A stretch of 64,000 bases of DNA, taken from assembly GCA_020851035.1 (NCBI GenBank), contig JADZDM010000028.1, positions 1 through 64,000 on the forward strand, written 5' to 3'. The DNA comes from Gemmatimonadaceae bacterium (GTDB lineage: Bacteria; Gemmatimonadota; Gemmatimonadetes; Gemmatimonadales; Gemmatimonadaceae). The notes under the pieces were generated by a model. The model saw only the letters and a list, made by a program, of their open reading frames with translations, did not search any database and was not told where the DNA came from. Both the position numbers and the translations under genes were made by a program. Of this stretch, positions 12,619 through 21,350 are shown piece by piece. Every line of letters starts with the position of its first letter. Positions within the stretch are counted from its first letter, which is position 1.

Positions 12619-14475
12619 TCAGCGACCGGCCATCGACTCCGGACGCAGCACGTCGTCGAGTTGCTCACGCGTGAGCCAGCCGCGCTCGAGCACGATCTCG
12701 GTCACGCCGCGCCCCGTCGCGAGTGCCTCCTTCGCGACGTCGGTGGCCTTCTCGTAGCCGATCACCGGCAGCAGCGCGGTCACCACGCCGATCGAGTGCT
12801 CCACGTAGTACCGCATCCGGTCTGCATTCGCCGTGATACCTGAGATGCACCTGGACTCGAGCACCTGGATCGCGTTCGTCAGCTCCTTGATGCCACCGAG
12901 CAGCCGGTAGGCGATGATCGGCTCGAACACGTTGAGCTGGAGCTGCCCCGCCTCGGCCGCCATCGTGATCGTGACGTCGCCACCGATGATGTCGAAGCAG
13001 ACCTGGTTGACCACCTCGGGGATCACCGGGTTCACCTTGCCCGGCATGATGCTGCTGCCCGGCTGCACCGGCGGCAGGTTGATCTCGCCGAAGCCGGCGC
13101 GTGGCCCCGACGAGAGCAGCCGCAGGTCGTTGCAGATCTTCGACAGCTTGGTGGCGGTGCGCTTGAGCACGCCGCTCAGCTGCACGAAGGCACCGGTGTC
13201 ACTGGTGGCCTCGATCAGGTCCGGCGCGGTGATCATCACCAGCCCCGTCACCTCCGAGAGGTGGCGCCGCACCGAGGTGGTGAACGACTCCGACGCCGTG
13301 ATGCCGGTCCCGATCGCGGTGGCGCCCATGTTCATCTCGCGCATCAGCGCCTGCGCCTCGGCGAGCCGGTCCACGTCCTCCATCAGCGTGTGGGCCCACG
13401 CCCGGAACTCGCGGCCGAGCGTCATCGGCACCGCGTCCTGCAGCTGCGTGCGGCCCATCTTGATGAGCGACGCGAACTCGACACCCTTCACGTCCATCGC
13501 CCCGCACAGCGACCGCAACGCGTCCCGCAGGCCGTCGAGCGCGGTGTGCAGCGCGATGCGGATGGACGTCGGATAGACGTCGTTGGTGCTCTGGCTGCGG
13601 TTCACGTGCTCGTTGGGGTGCACCACGTCATAGCTGCCGCGCGACCGCCCGAGGATCTCGAGCGCGCGATTCGCGATGACCTCGTTGGCGTTCATGTTGG
13701 TGCTCGTCCCGGCCCCGCCCTGGATCATGTCCACGATGAAGTGCTCGTGGTGCCGGCCCGCCCGCAGCTCCTCGCCGGCCCTGATGATCGCCTCGGCGAT
13801 GTGGTCGGGCAGCAGCCCGAGCTCGTGGTTGGCACGCGCGGCGGCGATCTTCACGCAGGCCAGTCCGGCGATCAGCTCGGGAACCTCGCGCAGCGGCACA
13901 CCGGTGATGGGAAAGTTCTCGGCGGCGCGCAGTGTCTGCACACCGTAGAGCGCCTCATCGGGCACCTCCCGATCGCCGAGCAGGTCGTGCTCGGTGCGCA
14001 TGCGCCGGCTGCCGAACCCCAGCGCGCGGCCGCGGCCCACCAGCGTCGCGTCGGCCACCCGCAGCCGCTGGGCGATCGCCCGCGCGGCGCGGGCCACCAG
14101 GCCGGCATAGAGGTGGGGATTGTCCTTCACCACCTCGGCCAGCTTCTCCTTGCGCAGGATCAGCAGCTCGCCGGCGATGACGGCACGGGCGGTGGTGCCA
14201 TGGCGGGTGTCATCGAGCAGCATGCCCTCGCCGATCGCCTCGCCGGGACCCATGGTCACCAGGCGCACCGTGCGCCCCTCGGCGGTCTTCTCGATGGTCA
14301 CGCCGCCGGTCACCACCAGCGCGAACATCGAGCGCTCCTCACCTTCGCGGAAGAACACGTCTTCGGTGGCGAAGGAGTGCGGCTCGACGGCGTGTGCCAG
14401 GCGCCAGAGCTGTGCGTCAGGAAGACCCTGCACGAACGGCAGCGCCTTCAGCTGTTTGAGAATCGCGTTTTTCAT
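12619..14475 (-). CDS. aspA: Aspartate ammonia-lyase with N-terminal cyclic-nucleotide-binding domain
   Basis: A 618-residue fusion. Residues about 14-125 form a CRP-type cyclic-nucleotide-binding domain, with a phosphate-binding cassette GEAIGEGMLLDD followed by the ligand-type Arg91. Residues about 155-618 are a complete aspartase of the fumarase/aspartase superfamily: TEHDLLGD entry, GAGTSTNMNANEV (255-267), NRSQSTNDVYPT (292-303) and the signature GSSIMPGKVNP (473-483). It should convert L-aspartate to fumarate and ammonia, with activity probably tuned by a bound nucleotide. Canonical aspartase is about 470 residues and lacks the first domain. It lies 52 nt after the Mur-ligase-like gene, with a -10 box (TAGCTT, 6 nt from ATG) of its own, so it may be transcribed both ways. 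Confidence 0.92.
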   Translation of the reverse strand: MKNAILKQLKALPFVQGLPDAQLWRLAHAVEPHSFATEDVFFREGEERSMFALVVTGGVTIEKTAEGRTVRLVTMGPGEAIGEGMLLDDTRHGTTARAVIAGELLILRKEKLAEVVKDNPHLYAGLVARAARAIAQRLRVADATLVGRGRALGFGSRRMRTEHDLLGDREVPDEALYGVQTLRAAENFPITGVPLREVPELIAGLACVKIAAARANHELGLLPDHIAEAIIRAGEELRAGRHHEHFIVDMIQGGAGTSTNMNANEVIANRALEILGRSRGSYDVVHPNEHVNRSQSTNDVYPTSIRIALHTALDGLRDALRSLCGAMDVKGVEFASLIKMGRTQLQDAVPMTLGREFRAWAHTLMEDVDRLAEAQALMREMNMGATAIGTGITASESFTTSVRRHLSEVTGLVMITAPDLIEATSDTGAFVQLSGVLKRTATKLSKICNDLRLLSSGPRAGFGEINLPPVQPGSSIMPGKVNPVIPEVVNQVCFDIIGGDVTITMAAEAGQLQLNVFEPIIAYRLLGGIKELTNAIQVLESRCISGITANADRMRYYVEHSIGVVTALLPVIGYEKATDVAKEALATGRGVTEIVLERGWLTREQLDDVLRPESMAGR

Positions 14476-14527: not shown

Positions 14528-16237
14528 TCAGCCGGCCCCGCCAGCGGTCCACGCAGGCACCGGGTCGCCGGCCTGCCAGCCGATCCGTGCCAGTTCTGCA
14601 AGGAAAGCGAGCACGGCGTCCCGGTCGGCGTGCACGGCGAGCAGGATGACATCACCCGCCTGCGCCCACTGCACGGCGAGGCGGGCAGCGGCAACGTCAT
14701 CCGCGGCCGCGGCACACTGCCCGTCGGGCACGCCCAGACCGTGCAACGCGGCGAGCAGCACGCCGCTGATCGACCCCGGCTCGCGCCCGCGCAGGAACCG
14801 CGGCATCTCCTTCGCGATGTAGAGGTCGATCACGCCGGCGCGCACGGCTGCCGCGGCGATGTCGTGCAGTGCCTCGTCGTCACGGTCGCCGCCGGTGGCG
14901 AGGGTGATGGCACGACGATGGCCCGCCAGGTGCCGCGTGGCGTCGATCAGGGCCGCCACGCCCTGCGGATTGTGGGCGTAGTCCACCACGACGGTCACGC
15001 CGCCGATGGTCTGGACCATGAGCCGCCCCATGTTGTCCGCCGGGTCGGCACCGAAGACCAGCAGCGCGCGCTGCGCGGCGGGAGGCAGTGCCAGTTCGCC
15101 GGCGACAGCGAGGGCGATGCGTGCGTTGAGCAGGTTGTGCGATGCGGCACCGCCGAGGGTGGCCGGGATGGCGCGCAACTCCTCCGCGGTGAGGGCCGCA
15201 GAGCCATCGGCGTGCACGAGATGCGTGCGGCCGGCGTACCCGGCGATCGCGTCCCGCAAGGCAGGCACGTCGCCGTTGACGACCAGCACCCCGGTCTCCT
15301 CCACCGCGCGCGTCACGACGAGCTTCGCCGCGGCCAGTGCGGCGAGGTCGGTGATGCCGTAGTCGCCGAAGTGGTCGGGCGAGAGCGTCACCACCGCCGC
15401 CACGGCAGCACGCTGCACGGCGAGCCCACGCCGCAGCATGCCCCCACGGGCAGACTCCAGCACGGCCAGTGTCACACGCGGGTCCTGCAGCACGCGCCGC
15501 GCACCGGCGGGACCGGACCAGTCGCCGCGCTCCACCCGCGCCCCGTCGATCCAGACACCGTCGGTGCAGGTGTGGCCGACCACATGCCCCGCGGCCCGTG
15601 CCATGGCCGCCACCATCCGCACGACGGTGGTCTTGCCGTTGGACCCGGTGACGAGGACGATCGGGATGTCGCGGATCGCGACCCAATCCACCTCGGAGAC
15701 CTTGGGCAGCAGCGTCAGTGGCCATCCGGTCGCGCCCGCACCGGTGCCGACGAAGAGCGCGGCATCGTCGAAGGTGACGTTCAGGCCCAGCCGCTGTCCC
15801 TCGTTCCAGAGCGCGCGGAGTCGAGGCGACGCCTCGCTGTCGCTGGCGGCACGCAGGGCCGGCAGCGCCGTGTCCGGGCCGGCGGCACTGGCACCGCGGA
15901 CGACCGCCTCGGCGGAGACCCACGCCGTCTCGCACACCTCGGTGGCGGTCATGAGCTGGTCGATCGGCGCGTGGACGAACAGGCTCGCGCCGCCGGGATA
16001 GCGCCGGACCGCCGTCTCTGCGTCAGGCCAGCCGAGTGCGGCGGCGAGTCCGGCCGCCTGCCGCTCCCACGCCTCCACCAGCGCCACCGCGTCCGTGTCG
16101 TGGTCGTCCAGCATCACGTCGAGCACGGCACCCAGGCCCGGGTGCATGAGGTTCGGACCCATCAGCCGGCGCGAGTCGACGATGGCCGGGGAGGGGTACC
16201 CCGACACGAGGTCCGGATCGCGCGGTGGGCGCGTCAT
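14528..16237 (-). CDS. Cyanophycin-synthetase-like Mur ligase lacking the ATP-grasp domain
   Basis: 569 residues. Residues about 19-165 look like a degenerate CphA N-domain: RRLMGPNLMHPGLGAVLDV resembles the CphA opening, but the HxxEH site of CphA is absent and the matching stretch reads TATEVCETAW. The ATP-grasp domain is missing. From about 190 a Mur-ligase module follows, with the ATP loop VTGSNGKTT (196-204), a LESARGG motif, an LSPDHFGDYG segment and DYAHNPQG. In CphA the ATP-grasp half adds Asp and the Mur half adds Arg to the Asp side chain, so this enzyme should catalyse only a Mur-type amide bond on an existing acceptor. It starts 30 nt after the cphA stop. The substrate is unknown; similar genes occur beside cphA elsewhere, to my recollection. 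Confidence 0.75.
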   Translation of the reverse strand: MTRPPRDPDLVSGYPSPAIVDSRRLMGPNLMHPGLGAVLDVMLDDHDTDAVALVEAWERQAAGLAAALGWPDAETAVRRYPGGASLFVHAPIDQLMTATEVCETAWVSAEAVVRGASAAGPDTALPALRAASDSEASPRLRALWNEGQRLGLNVTFDDAALFVGTGAGATGWPLTLLPKVSEVDWVAIRDIPIVLVTGSNGKTTVVRMVAAMARAAGHVVGHTCTDGVWIDGARVERGDWSGPAGARRVLQDPRVTLAVLESARGGMLRRGLAVQRAAVAAVVTLSPDHFGDYGITDLAALAAAKLVVTRAVEETGVLVVNGDVPALRDAIAGYAGRTHLVHADGSAALTAEELRAIPATLGGAASHNLLNARIALAVAGELALPPAAQRALLVFGADPADNMGRLMVQTIGGVTVVVDYAHNPQGVAALIDATRHLAGHRRAITLATGGDRDDEALHDIAAAAVRAGVIDLYIAKEMPRFLRGREPGSISGVLLAALHGLGVPDGQCAAAADDVAAARLAVQWAQAGDVILLAVHADRDAVLAFLAELARIGWQAGDPVPAWTAGGAG

Positions 16238-16267: not shown

Positions 16268-19177
16268 TCAGTCGTTGGCTTCGCGGGCAAGGTACACACC
16301 ACGATCATCGCGGATGATGGTGGTGCCGGCTTCCTCGGTGTCGCGATGCGTCGAGACCGGCAGCTTGTCGCGCAGCGAGCCGGGGATGGCATAGGTGTCC
16401 GTGATCTGGCGCACGGGCGCGTCGGCCGCAGGCGGCGCGGCGGGCAGGTCGTCATCGGCCAGTTCGACCACGTCCGGCGCGATCGTCTGCGGCACCTGGC
16501 GCTTCGGCGAGACGAGAGATGCCCGGTCGAAGTCCGGCTTGAACTGCGTGATCTGCTTCCAGCCGCGTGCGAGCGCATCGGCGAAGATGAGCACCAGGTC
16601 ACCCGGCTGCGCGTGCCGCAGCGCGGTATCGATCGCCGCCTGCTCGTCGACGATGACCTCCACCCGGTCCTGGCTGATGCCATGCGAGAGCAGGGTGGCC
16701 TCCAGCATGCGCGGCACCTCGTCGTCGCCACGGCCGCGGCGGCTGTCATCGCGGCGGCAGATGTAGTGGTCGAAGAGGCCGGCGGCGGCCACGTCACCGA
16801 TGGCGGCGATATCCTGGTCGCGACGGTCACCGGGGGCGGCGAGCACGCAGATGCGGCGCCCCTTCACGTCGAGCCGATTGGCGAGCTGGCAGAGCTGCTC
16901 GATGGCGTCGGCGTTGTGGCCGTAGTCGAAGAGCACGCGGAACGGATGCTGGTCGTACACGTTCAACCGGCCCGGCGCCTGGAAGAAGCTGGTGTCGAAG
17001 GTGCGCAGGCCGTGGCGGATGTCCTCGAGGCGCACGCCCATCGCGAACGCCATCGCCGCGGCGAACATCGCGTTCTGCACGTTGTGCAGCGCCTTGCCCT
17101 CGATGGTCGCCGGGATGAGGTGCGTCCAGAGCAGCGGGATGTGTGCGCCGTGGTCGTAGATGGTGATCATCGACCCGTTGATCCCGTTCTCGAGCGCAAT
17201 GGCGCGGCCGCCGGCGCGAATGTGCTCGCGCACCAGCTCGTGGTCCGGGTTCAGCGTCACATAGCAGACGTGCTTCGCGTCGGTGTAGGCCGCCATCCGC
17301 AGCGTGTGCGGATCGTCGGCATTCAGCACCGCCGTGTCGCGCGCGATCTCCACCACCGTGCGCTTGATCTCGGCCAGCTGCTCGAGGGTGTCGATGTTCT
17401 TCTGGCCGAGGTGGTCGGGGCGCACGTTGAGCACCGCGCCGACGTCCACGTAGCGGGTGGCCATGCCGGCACGCAGCAGGCCGCCGCGTGCGGTTTCGAG
17501 GACGGCCACGTCCACCATCGGGTCGCTGAGCACGATGCGCGCGGCGGTGGGGCCGGTCATGTCGCCGACGACGGTGCGCTGGCCATCGATGTAGACGCCG
17601 TCGGTGGTGGTGAGGCCCACCCGCTTGCCCGAGAGCTTGTGGATGTGCGCCAGCATGCGCGACGTGGTGGTCTTGCCGTTGGTGCCGGTGATGGCCGCGA
17701 TGGGGATCGTGACCGGGGCGCCCGCGGGGAAGAGCATGTCGATGGTCTTGCCAGCCACGTCACGCGGACGCCCGTCGCTGGGCGCCATGTGCATGCGGAA
17801 GCCCGGGGCGGCGTTGATCTCGCAGATCGCGCCGCCGATTTCCTTGTAGCTCTGCGTGATGTCGGGGGTGAGGAAGTCCACACCCCCGATGTCGAGCCCG
17901 ATCGCCTTGATCGCCCGCACCGCCATCTCGGCGTTGTCGGGGTGCACCAGGTCGGTCATGTCGCGCGCGGTGCCGCCGGTGCTGAGGTTGGCGGTGAGGC
18001 GCAGATAGACCACCTCGTCGACGGACGGGATCGTCAGCGGCGTGTAGCCAAGCTTGTCGAGCAGGCCCATCGCCTGCTCATCGAGCTCGATGCGGGTGAG
18101 CACCTTCTCGTGGCCGATACCGCGGCGCGGGTCGGCGTTCACGTTCGCGACCAGCTGCTCGATGGTGTGTACGCCATCTCCGATGACGTGACCGGGCTCG
18201 CGCTTCGATACCGCGACCAGCTCACCGTCGATCACCACCATGCGGTGATCGTGGCCGGTGATGAACGTCTCGACGATCACGCTGCGCGAGTGTTCCTGCG
18301 CCCGCGCGAAGGCCTCGTGGATCTCGGCGTTGGTGCTGAGGTTGATCGAGACACCGCGTCCATGGTTGCCGTTGTACGGCTTGAGCACCACCGGGCGCCC
18401 GATGCGATCTGCCGCACTGACCGCGCGCTCGGCCGTCTGTACCAGCCGCTGCTTCGGCACCGGCAAACCGAGGTTGGCGAGGATCTTGTTCGTCTCCTCC
18501 TTGTCGCCGGCCAGCTCGACGGCGATGTGCGACGTGCGCCCGGTGACGGTGGCCTGGATGCGCTGCTGGTGCACGCCGTAGCCGAGCTGGATCAGCGACT
18601 GCTCGTTGAGCCGGATCCACGGGATGCCGCGCTTCTCTGCGGCGTGCACGATGCTGGCGGTGCTGGGGCCGAGGGCGCGGCGCTGGGCGTAGCGGATGAA
18701 CGTGTCGCGGCGGGATTCCCAGTCGAAACTCGGGTCGAAGTCGTCGGGGCGCAGCTCGGGCGGCAGCATGGAGTGCAGCAGGTCGAGCGACAGGTCGGCG
18801 GCCTCGATGCCCACGTCCTCCTGCTCGTACTCGAACGCCACGTCGTAGACACCCTCGCGGCCGGCGCTGCGCGTCTTGCCGAACGTCACGGCGATGCCGG
18901 CGGTGTTCTGCATCTCCAGCACCACGTGCTCGAACACGTGACCGAGCCAGGTGCCTTCATCCTCGGTCATGCGGCGGATGAATCCACCCGGTTCGCCGTA
19001 GCTGCAGCCGTGCTCCCTCAGGCCGGGCAGGCGCTCGATGAGCGTGTCGATGAAACCGCGTCCCAGTCGCATCGTCGGCCAGGCTTCGAGTGCACCGAGG
19101 TCCACTTCCAGCCGGATGACCGGGAAGTGTGCGTAGTGACTGGGCCCGACGTAGACGTTGCGATCGAGGATCTTCAT
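16268..19177 (-). CDS. cphA: Cyanophycin synthetase
   Basis: A 969-residue enzyme that polymerises Asp and Arg, using ATP, into the nitrogen reserve cyanophycin. The N-domain (1 to about 160) carries HVFEH (80-84), the HxxEH metal site reported to cut cyanophycin into primers in cyanobacterial CphA. The ATP-grasp domain (about 161-485) includes KEETNKIL, VVLKPYNGNHGRGV (263-276) and GGVDF, and adds Asp. The Mur-ligase domain (about 490-880) has ITGTNGKTTTSRM (496-508), ETARGG and DYGHN, and adds Arg. About 80 Pro/Asp-rich residues at the C-terminus exceed the usual length of roughly 870-900. Its ATG overlaps the cphB stop by 4 nt (ATGA), so the two are translationally coupled. Confidence 0.97.
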   Translation of the reverse strand: MKILDRNVYVGPSHYAHFPVIRLEVDLGALEAWPTMRLGRGFIDTLIERLPGLREHGCSYGEPGGFIRRMTEDEGTWLGHVFEHVVLEMQNTAGIAVTFGKTRSAGREGVYDVAFEYEQEDVGIEAADLSLDLLHSMLPPELRPDDFDPSFDWESRRDTFIRYAQRRALGPSTASIVHAAEKRGIPWIRLNEQSLIQLGYGVHQQRIQATVTGRTSHIAVELAGDKEETNKILANLGLPVPKQRLVQTAERAVSAADRIGRPVVLKPYNGNHGRGVSINLSTNAEIHEAFARAQEHSRSVIVETFITGHDHRMVVIDGELVAVSKREPGHVIGDGVHTIEQLVANVNADPRRGIGHEKVLTRIELDEQAMGLLDKLGYTPLTIPSVDEVVYLRLTANLSTGGTARDMTDLVHPDNAEMAVRAIKAIGLDIGGVDFLTPDITQSYKEIGGAICEINAAPGFRMHMAPSDGRPRDVAGKTIDMLFPAGAPVTIPIAAITGTNGKTTTSRMLAHIHKLSGKRVGLTTTDGVYIDGQRTVVGDMTGPTAARIVLSDPMVDVAVLETARGGLLRAGMATRYVDVGAVLNVRPDHLGQKNIDTLEQLAEIKRTVVEIARDTAVLNADDPHTLRMAAYTDAKHVCYVTLNPDHELVREHIRAGGRAIALENGINGSMITIYDHGAHIPLLWTHLIPATIEGKALHNVQNAMFAAAMAFAMGVRLEDIRHGLRTFDTSFFQAPGRLNVYDQHPFRVLFDYGHNADAIEQLCQLANRLDVKGRRICVLAAPGDRRDQDIAAIGDVAAAGLFDHYICRRDDSRRGRGDDEVPRMLEATLLSHGISQDRVEVIVDEQAAIDTALRHAQPGDLVLIFADALARGWKQITQFKPDFDRASLVSPKRQVPQTIAPDVVELADDDLPAAPPAADAPVRQITDTYAIPGSLRDKLPVSTHRDTEEAGTTIIRDDRGVYLAREAND

Positions 19178-20004
19178 TCAGGCAGGCCAGAGTGCTGGAG
19201 GGTGACCACGTTGCTGCCGTGGGCCTTGCGGGTGCGCATGTCGTAGCCGGCGCCCTGCGTGAGCAGGTGCATGCGCAGGCCGATCATCGTGATGGGATCG
19301 TACTTCCCGGCCAGCCACATGGACGTGAACTCGGTTTTCGAGGTGTCGATGACGGTGACGGCGCTGGTGCCCATGACGTCGATCTCGTCGTCGGGGCTGA
19401 TGAAGGCCGCCGTGTCCTCGTCCACGCCGAGTCCGAGGAAGCCCGGGTGGGAGGAGAGGGCGGTGAGCAGGCGGCCGAGTCGGTCGCGCTGGCGGAAGTG
19501 CTGGTCGATGATGATGTCGTTGGTGAGGCCGAAGCCCGGTACCAGCGTGACGATGCCGGCGCGAGGTGTCGGCCCTTCCTCGCCGCCGCCGATCATGTGC
19601 TCCGACATCACCGCGGCACCGGCGCTGGTGCCGGCCACCGGCATGCCGGCGGCGAAGCGTGCGCGCAGCAGGCGGGAGGCGGGGGTGCCGCCCATGATGT
19701 TGGTGAGACGGAGCTGGTTGCCGCCGGTGATGAAGACGCCGTCGCAGTCTTCCAGCTCGCCGAGCCAGTCGCGATCGTCGCAGTCGCTGCGGCGCTGGAA
19801 GTTCAGGGCGCGGGCGTATTTCACGCCCATCTTCCGGAACTGCTTCTCGTACCATTCACCCATGTCCGCCTCTTCGGAGGCGGTGGGGATGATGGCGATG
19901 ACCGGGTTGCGGCCGCAGATGCCGATGAACCGGTCGAGGATGGCGGCGTCGGTGAGCTTGCCGCCGATGGGGATGAGCCAGCCTTTGCTGTGGGTGGTCG
20001 TCAT
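19174..20004 (-). CDS. cphB: Cyanophycinase (S51 family serine exopeptidase)
   Basis: A 276-residue cytosolic peptidase that releases beta-Asp-Arg dipeptides from cyanophycin. The nucleophile elbow is GTSAGA (125-130, Ser127), preceded by the oxyanion-type FITGGNQLRL segment (91-100) and followed by the LVPGFGLTNDIIIDQHF region with the likely His. Length and motif spacing match CphB rather than peptidase E. It is the first gene of the cphB-cphA run, and its stop overlaps the cphA start. A TACCTT box 5 nt before ATG predicts a leaderless message. It is divergent from iadA over 212 nt that hold no other gene. Confidence 0.96.
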   Translation of the reverse strand: MTTTHSKGWLIPIGGKLTDAAILDRFIGICGRNPVIAIIPTASEEADMGEWYEKQFRKMGVKYARALNFQRRSDCDDRDWLGELEDCDGVFITGGNQLRLTNIMGGTPASRLLRARFAAGMPVAGTSAGAAVMSEHMIGGGEEGPTPRAGIVTLVPGFGLTNDIIIDQHFRQRDRLGRLLTALSSHPGFLGLGVDEDTAAFISPDDEIDVMGTSAVTVIDTSKTEFTSMWLAGKYDPITMIGLRMHLLTQGAGYDMRTRKAHGSNVVTLQHSGLPE

Positions 20005-20216: not shown

Positions 20217-21350
20217 ATGACTATCGAACAGAGCGAGGCCGGGGGGATGCGGCTGGTGCTGAACGCGGATGTATATGCGCCAGAACACCTTGGGCATCGG
20301 CACATCCTGACGGGGGGTGGGCGGATCCTGTGGATGGGGACGGACCGGCCGTCGTTTCCGGGCTACCTCGGGGTGGAGGAGGTGGACCTGGCGGGGCGGC
20401 AGGTGATCCCGGGGTTGATCGACGGGCATTGCCACGTGACCGGAGGCGGCGGCGAGGCGGGGCCGGCCTCGAAGGTCCCCGCTCCCTTGGCTGAGTCGTA
20501 CCGGAAGGCGGGAGTGACGACGGTGGTGGGGGTGCTGGGGACCGATGATGTCACGCGGTCCACGGCGGAGCTGATCGCGGGGGTGCGTGCGCTGCGAGCG
20601 CAGGGGATCAACGCGTGGTGTCACACGGGCGGGTATCACCTGCCGCTGACGACGCTCACGGGGTCGGTGCGGTCGGACATCGTGAACATCGATTGTGTGA
20701 TCGGGGTGGGTGAGGTCGCGATTTCAGATCACCGGTCATCGCAGCCGACGCTGGATGAGCTGCTGCGGATCGCGGCGGACGCGCACGTGGCGGGGTTGAT
20801 GACAGGCAAGGCGGGGATCCTGCACCTGCACGTGGGTGATGGGCCGCGGGGCCTCGAGTTGATTCGTGAGGCGTTGCGGGTGTCGGAGATTCCGGCGCGG
20901 GTGTTCAATCCGACGCACGTGAACCGGCGGAAGGGGTTGCTGCACGAGGCGATTGCGCTCGTGAAAGAGCATGGGTGTTACATCGACATCACGGACTTTC
21001 CGGTGGCCGATGGTGAAGACGCCTATTCGGCTGCCGACGCGCTCGAGGTGTATTGGGAGTCGGGGGCGCCGCTCGACCGCGTCACTGTTTCGTCGGATGG
21101 TGGGGGGTGTTTGCCTGTCTTTGGGCCGGATGGGCAGGTGGTGTCGTACGACGTTGGGGATTGCTCGGCGTTGATGGGGACGGTGCGGACGTTGGTTGGG
21201 CGGGGGCATGCGCTGGAGCAGGTGCTGCCGGCGTTCACGCAGAATGCGGCGGTGCTGCTGCGGATGCGTGATGTTGGCGAACTCGCGCTGGGACATCGCG
21301 ACGACGCCGTGTTGTTCGGCGCCGGCCCGACTTCGATCACGCGTGACTGA
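20217..21350 (+). CDS. iadA: Isoaspartyl dipeptidase
   Basis: A 377-residue amidohydrolase that splits beta-Asp dipeptides, here most likely the beta-Asp-Arg made by cyanophycinase. Binuclear metal motifs are visible: GLIDGHCH (66-73), the bridging-ligand segment GVGEVAISDHRS (163-174), LHVGDG, NPTHVNR and SSDGGG. In E. coli IadA the bridge is a carboxylated Lys162; the aligned residue here appears to be Glu166. Two starts are possible: ATG 20217 with a -10 box 6 nt upstream, or ATG 20247, which has a GAGG 8 nt before it and gives the usual N-terminus. It is divergent from cphB and completes the degradation pathway. Confidence 0.92.
   Translation: MTIEQSEAGGMRLVLNADVYAPEHLGHRHILTGGGRILWMGTDRPSFPGYLGVEEVDLAGRQVIPGLIDGHCHVTGGGGEAGPASKVPAPLAESYRKAGVTTVVGVLGTDDVTRSTAELIAGVRALRAQGINAWCHTGGYHLPLTTLTGSVRSDIVNIDCVIGVGEVAISDHRSSQPTLDELLRIAADAHVAGLMTGKAGILHLHVGDGPRGLELIREALRVSEIPARVFNPTHVNRRKGLLHEAIALVKEHGCYIDITDFPVADGEDAYSAADALEVYWESGAPLDRVTVSSDGGGCLPVFGPDGQVVSYDVGDCSALMGTVRTLVGRGHALEQVLPAFTQNAAVLLRMRDVGELALGHRDDAVLFGAGPTSITRD

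Follow-up and report, generated by a model that had tools for sequence, protein, structure and literature searches.

Cyanophycin is a bacterial nitrogen-storage polymer. Its synthesis is usually credited to one enzyme, and the start of the chain is a long-standing question. In the synthetase CphA1 (TIGR02068), the M domain binds chains only when the C-terminal Asp is unmodified and carries no Arg (PMC9427784). The N domain can hold a primer-cutting site, Cx19HxxEH, which is present in 83% of CphA1 and is therefore not strictly defining (PMC9262961). CphA2 is a relative without this N-domain motif (PMC9262961). It has retained its G domain and in cyanobacteria polymerises beta-Asp-Arg.

No companion gene was found described in the published literature on cyanophycin and Mur ligases, a body in which subscription journals were little covered and may hold an earlier description. 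The accessible parts of a survey of cyanophycin gene clusters do not mention such a gene (PMC10206079). The genome paper of Lysobacter capsici presents cphA-cphB as a two-gene cluster (PMC4742617).

The cphM gene and its neighbours

The window is the whole stretch of DNA that was analysed, 64,000 nt in length. It contains a minus-strand ORF with an ATG at 16237 and a stop at 14528, whose product we provisionally call CphM. The ORF starts 30 nt after the stop of cphA, the distance given in the earlier note. The minus-strand operon is cphB-cphA-cphM, with aspA behind it and a divergent iadA in front (Table 1). In most relatives iadA is co-directional.

The aspA gene lies 52 nt behind cphM. Its fusion to a cyclic-nucleotide-binding domain is unusual and might link Asp breakdown to a nucleotide signal. 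It is the next gene after cphM in only 3/101 loci.

Table 1. Features of the cphM locus, in window positions
Feature	Position	Strand	Basis or remark
aspA, aspartate ammonia-lyase with N-terminal cyclic-nucleotide-binding domain	12619..14475	-	Pfam, NCBIfam
cphM (provisional), G-less CphA paralog, 569 aa	14528..16237	-	Pfam, NCBIfam, AlphaFold2 model
Mur lid domain, CphM residues ~404-555	14573..15028	-	
CphM H536, aligned to CphA D867	14630..14632	-	All CphA1 in the set acidic here, no CphM
KEMPRFLRGR, CphM residues 476-485	14783..14812	-	Aligned to CphA 808-816 (RRDDSRRGR) and MurE DNPR
Mur core, CphM residues ~191-403	15029..15667	-	P-loop, E261, D288, H289, K305
P-loop GSNGKTT, CphM residues 198-204	15626..15646	-	G198, N200, G201, K202, T204 invariant in 97
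CphA G core stub, CphM residues ~121-190	15668..15877	-	ATP-grasp itself absent
Predicted CphA-type N fold without HxxEH helix, CphM residues ~17-117	15887..16189	-	Conserved SRR(L) and GPN motifs
cphA, cyanophycin synthetase 1, 969 aa	16268..19177	-	NCBIfam, 1133 bits, over cut-off
CphA1 conserved C-terminal peptide TTIIRDDRGVYLAREAND	16271..16324	-	Last residue Asp at 16271-16273
cphB, cyanophycinase	19174..20004	-	TIGR02069, 233.5 bits, over cut-off
iadA, isoaspartyl dipeptidase	20217..21350	+	TIGR01975, 327.8 bits, slightly below cut-off 331.25

Domain make-up, fold and active site of CphM

CphM is a paralog of CphA1 with an N fold, a G core stub and a complete Mur module, and it has lost the ATP-grasp. 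Pfam finds only Mur_ligase_M and Mur_ligase_C. ATP-grasp is absent by Pfam, and the G domain is skipped in the structural alignment to CphA1. Among NCBIfam models, cyanophycin synthetase (TIGR02068) scores best, but its 266.6 bits are far below the cut-off of 850. CphM also falls below the cut-offs of murE (TIGR01085; 62.9 bits vs 257.3) and folylpolyglutamate synthase (TIGR01499; 36.9 bits vs 162.65). The solved structures closest to it by sequence are those of CphA1. The earlier note had described a CphA-like Mur ligase without ATP-grasp next to cphA, and both parts of this description hold. Neither MurT nor a folyl ligase, the families it had named as alternatives, is the best match.

The AlphaFold2 model of CphM has a pLDDT of 91.2 and superposes on CphA1, leaving out the G domain. 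Residues 17-403 align to CphA1 1-724 with a Z of 36.6 over 378 residues, and more complete CphA1 chains align over 519-526 residues. The Mur core alone could carry this Z, so residues 1-190 were folded separately (pLDDT 94.1). The 13 best Foldseek chains for this part were CphA1 and CphA2. VIA-align placed 11 CphA entries on top (Z 8.6-12.3 over 167-177 residues), and the next-best non-CphA entry reached Z 7.7 over 85 residues. The overlay on the CphA N domain, which the earlier note had proposed as its check, thus found the claimed similarity. When only the N part was compared by profile-profile methods, the signal was weak (probability 7-16%) but correctly ordered; the claim therefore relies on predicted folds, by which CphM has an N domain of the CphA fold.

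In the alignments of residues 1-190, the matched part of the CphA1 entries begins at residue 1 or 2 and ends at 471-487. Residue 487 is the end of the G domain, so a G core stub is kept. This stub lies between the two parts that the note had taken to be joined directly, and that detail did not stand. HxxEH was present at its N-domain position in 0/97 CphM vs 91/91 CphA1. These counts, like the other conservation counts here, come from an alignment of 97 CphM sequences and a CphA1 comparison set of 91. The Cx19HxxEH primer-cutting site is thus gone, as had been claimed, but it was deleted together with its helix and not replaced by other residues.

The catalytic residues of the Mur module are intact. 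Invariant in the 97 CphM are G198, N200, G201, K202, T204, E261, D288, H289, K305, N371, R405, D419, H422, N423 and R452. D288 and H289 align with D585 and H586 of SuCphA1, a pair whose mutation abolishes its M-site activity (PMC9262961). This invariance suggests that CphM is likely a working ATP-dependent ligase.

Two positions near the pocket differ. At the position of CphA D867, nearly all CphM have H, L or Q, and none of the 97 is acidic. The position of D810 is acidic in 44/97. Both residues are fully conserved in the partner CphA1. By alignment they map beside the MurE motifs DNPR and GKGHE, which we take to line the amino-acid pocket. Such changes suggest that the amino acid added may not be Arg, and the earlier proposal of a different amino acid as substrate is plausible from the sequence.

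CphM and CphA1 are alike in N fold, G core stub, Mur core and lid, Mur catalytic residues and pathway. CphM differs in its missing ATP-grasp and HxxEH helix, its changed pocket residues and its separate clade. Like CphA2, it belongs to the CphA-type proteins and has only one active site left, and its N part matches CphA2 structures. CphA2 keeps the G domain whereas CphM keeps the Mur site, so CphM is the reverse reduction. The mark of CphA2, a working G site as the sole active site, is not found in CphM, where G is absent and the Mur residues are intact. MurE and other Mur ligases share the core and lid folds and the catalytic residues, but CphM scores far under the murE cut-off and the genome has a separate murE.

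Two G-less CphA relatives are encoded on plasmids of Legionella adelaidensis and Deinococcus deserti. They contain an N domain and a Mur module without ATP-grasp, as CphM does. Unlike CphM, they have a clearly recognisable N domain (PF18921). Both are nearer CphA1 than CphM by BLAST, and these are therefore apparently separate G-domain losses. The L. adelaidensis protein (WP_058462805.1; L169:4608-6476) has 622 aa and an intact HxxEH N domain. Its gene is followed by cyanophycinase and isoaspartyl peptidase genes, with no cphA alongside. The D. deserti protein (WP_012695043.1; plasmid 3, L170:5023-7197) has 724 aa and no HxxEH.

Distribution of cphM and the tail of its partner CphA1

Among 298 Gemmatimonadota genomes, CphM was present in 43/45 with the CphA clade of the window (clade A) and in 0/25 with other cphA (Fisher 5e-17, kinship not corrected for). 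In the two clade-A genomes without CphM, cphA was matched only in part. The conserved co-occurrence with one CphA1 clade agrees with the shared cyanophycin pathway suggested in the earlier note.

A scan of species genomes retrieved at least 523 stretches encoding a relative of the CphM query, some of which are possibly CphA1. From these, 80 loci were kept, which represent Gemmatimonadota, Acidobacteriota, Planctomycetota, Pseudomonadota, Rhodothermales, Chloroflexota, Eisenbacteria and Neomarinimicrobiota. The 97 aligned CphM span eight phyla. Confinement of cphM to Gemmatimonadota was thus rejected. No relative was found in a scan of viral contigs with the CphM protein of the window. RefSeq names the relatives only 'Mur ligase family protein'.

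The usual gene order across phyla is (iadA-)cphB-cphA-cphM. The cphA and cphM genes were co-stranded in 78/78 measured pairs, and in 72 of the 78 the conserved SRR codon of cphM lay no more than 120 nt from the stop of cphA. When further conserved neighbours were sought, only iadA, cphB and cphA proved to belong to the operon generally. At two loci with cphM and no nearby cphA (L080 and L147) the neighbours were uninformative, and cphA was elsewhere in both genomes.

CphM forms a single clade (support 98/92). Its distances track those of CphA (Spearman 0.77; 0/999 permutations as high), and it diverges faster (median distance 0.58 vs 0.35). The dN/dS of cphM against its nearest relative is ~0.29, which indicates purifying selection. 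Genome G185 encodes a CphM homolog in two frames with a gap at about residues 238-275 (L068:6395-7775, minus strand), and no cphA was detected there. The gene may have decayed once its partner was lost, or the split may be an error of assembly.

The CphA1 of CphM operons has an extended C terminus. Past the M domain it contains a variable linker, a conserved peptide close to LVRDERGVRLARE, a few residues and Asp. Of 91 tails in the set, one is masked sequence and one belongs to the CphA of genome G210, which has no CphM. The RDERGVRLAR-like motif and the terminal Asp were found in all 89 readable clade tails with CphM, counts that are not independent, since the sequences are related and the CphM-tail association may be one old event. 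The number of residues following RGV varies from 7 to 13 in these 89, yet the last is always Asp. The background frequency of Asp in the tails is 7.6%. Four more plasmid-borne CphA1 with CphM have the motif and terminal Asp. The motif was present in 0/25 CphA without CphM (14 type-B, 10 plasmid and the G210 CphA). Two of these 10 plasmid CphA end in Asp without it.

The tail is also kept in genomes where cphM is far from cphA, and its codons vary. It is therefore a feature of the protein, and the idea that it serves cphM as an RNA signal or for ribosome binding was rejected on the same grounds. A query of solved structures with the tail peptide retrieved no CphA1; such short queries are weak, and the constructs were possibly cut. 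This tail with its terminal Asp, which the earlier note did not mention, points to CphA1 itself as the substrate or dock of CphM.

Possible roles of CphM

We tentatively propose that CphM is a stand-alone M ligase that acts with the neighbouring CphA1 and ligates an amino acid to its C-terminal Asp (probability about 0.38). Ligation is placed there since the CphA1 tail always ends in Asp and a C-terminal Asp is the residue on which M sites act. A CphA-type ancestor would have lost its ATP-grasp (backbone-extending) site and its primer-cutting site, giving CphM as a partner of the CphA1 encoded alongside. CphM would recognise the RDERGVRLAR-like peptide with the invariant Asp a few residues on. 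It would spend ATP to activate a carboxylate of this Asp and join an amino acid, not necessarily Arg, as the M domain of CphA1 does on the C-terminal Asp of the growing chain. The product might be a protein-linked primer or cap.

Some findings count against ligation to the tail. The partner CphA1 has a complete primer-cutting site in 91/91, so an extra primer is perhaps unneeded. A primer must be at least (beta-Asp-Arg)-Asp (PMC9262961), and one modified Asp may therefore be too short. The M site of CphA1 itself could act on the tail. An extended form of the proposal is rather doubtful: CphM would aminoacylate the C-terminal Asp, the tail of CphA1 would then serve as the starting point for a chain made by the same CphA1, and finished chains would be released by the N-domain site of CphA1.

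The main rival takes the tail as a dock only and is possible, if somewhat unlikely. Tethered there, CphM would modify cyanophycin at its Asp side chains or its ends with a non-Arg amino acid, and so alter the composition of the polymer or cap the chain. The two pocket-near residues, conserved in the CphA1 partners and changed in CphM, favour this, as does the IadA of cyanophycin clusters, which accepts many beta-Asp-X according to the accessible parts of PMC10206079. The part of D810 and D867 in Arg binding is putative, however, and a dock leaves the constant terminal Asp at a varying distance from the motif unexplained. It is unlikely that CphM serves repair or a higher rate by adding Arg, like the M site of CphA1, to chain ends or to Asp residues that lack it. 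This role would fit the origin of CphM in a CphA M domain and the fully conserved catalytic residues, but CphA1 already has this activity with all its M-site residues kept, and the pocket residues of CphM differ.

We consider it very unlikely that CphM uses beta-Asp-Arg or other small cyanophycinase products for salvage or primer-making. The cphB and iadA genes lie in the same operon, and CphA2 is a precedent as a single-site relative that re-uses the dipeptide (accessible parts of PMC10206079). CphA2 re-polymerises through a G-type site, though, which CphM lacks, and the CphA1 tail would be left unexplained. It is just as improbable that CphM serves CphA1 as a structural or regulatory subunit, with catalysis unimportant: the conserved pairing, the likely dock on the tail and the faster divergence agree with it, whereas the invariant catalytic residues do not. 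That CphM is a functionless, decaying duplicate is hardly credible. The frameshifted copy in G185 would fit, but the reading is contradicted by the low dN/dS, the single old clade across many phyla and the invariant active site.

Glycogenin provides protein-linked priming, and RimK is an ATP-dependent ligase that adds glutamate to the C terminus of S6. Both are unrelated to Mur ligases, and their likeness to the role proposed for CphM is hypothetical. Protein-primed synthesis, if true, would give many phyla a counterpart of glycogenin for a nitrogen polymer. The conserved second ligase and a synthetase ending in Asp make chain initiation, capping and composition directly testable. Cultured hosts for such tests are Rhodanobacter, Pseudoxanthomonas, Lysobacter and Ruegeria. 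The findings may be relevant to the production of cyanophycin and of variants with other side chains.

On a plasmid of Ruegeria sp. AD91A (L167:1-2575), genes for a saccharopine dehydrogenase-type protein and an aldehyde dehydrogenase lie directly upstream of cphB-cphA-cphM. This pair is of the kind found in lysine metabolism.

The type-B cphA loci of Gemmatimonadota (L055:5528-6592, minus strand, and 11 similar) have a different companion gene after cphA. Its product contains a CphA N domain with Cx19HxxEH (12/12), fused to a Mur-core-like part with a P-loop in 0/12. It appears to be a primer-cutting protein that stands alone, the mirror image of CphM.
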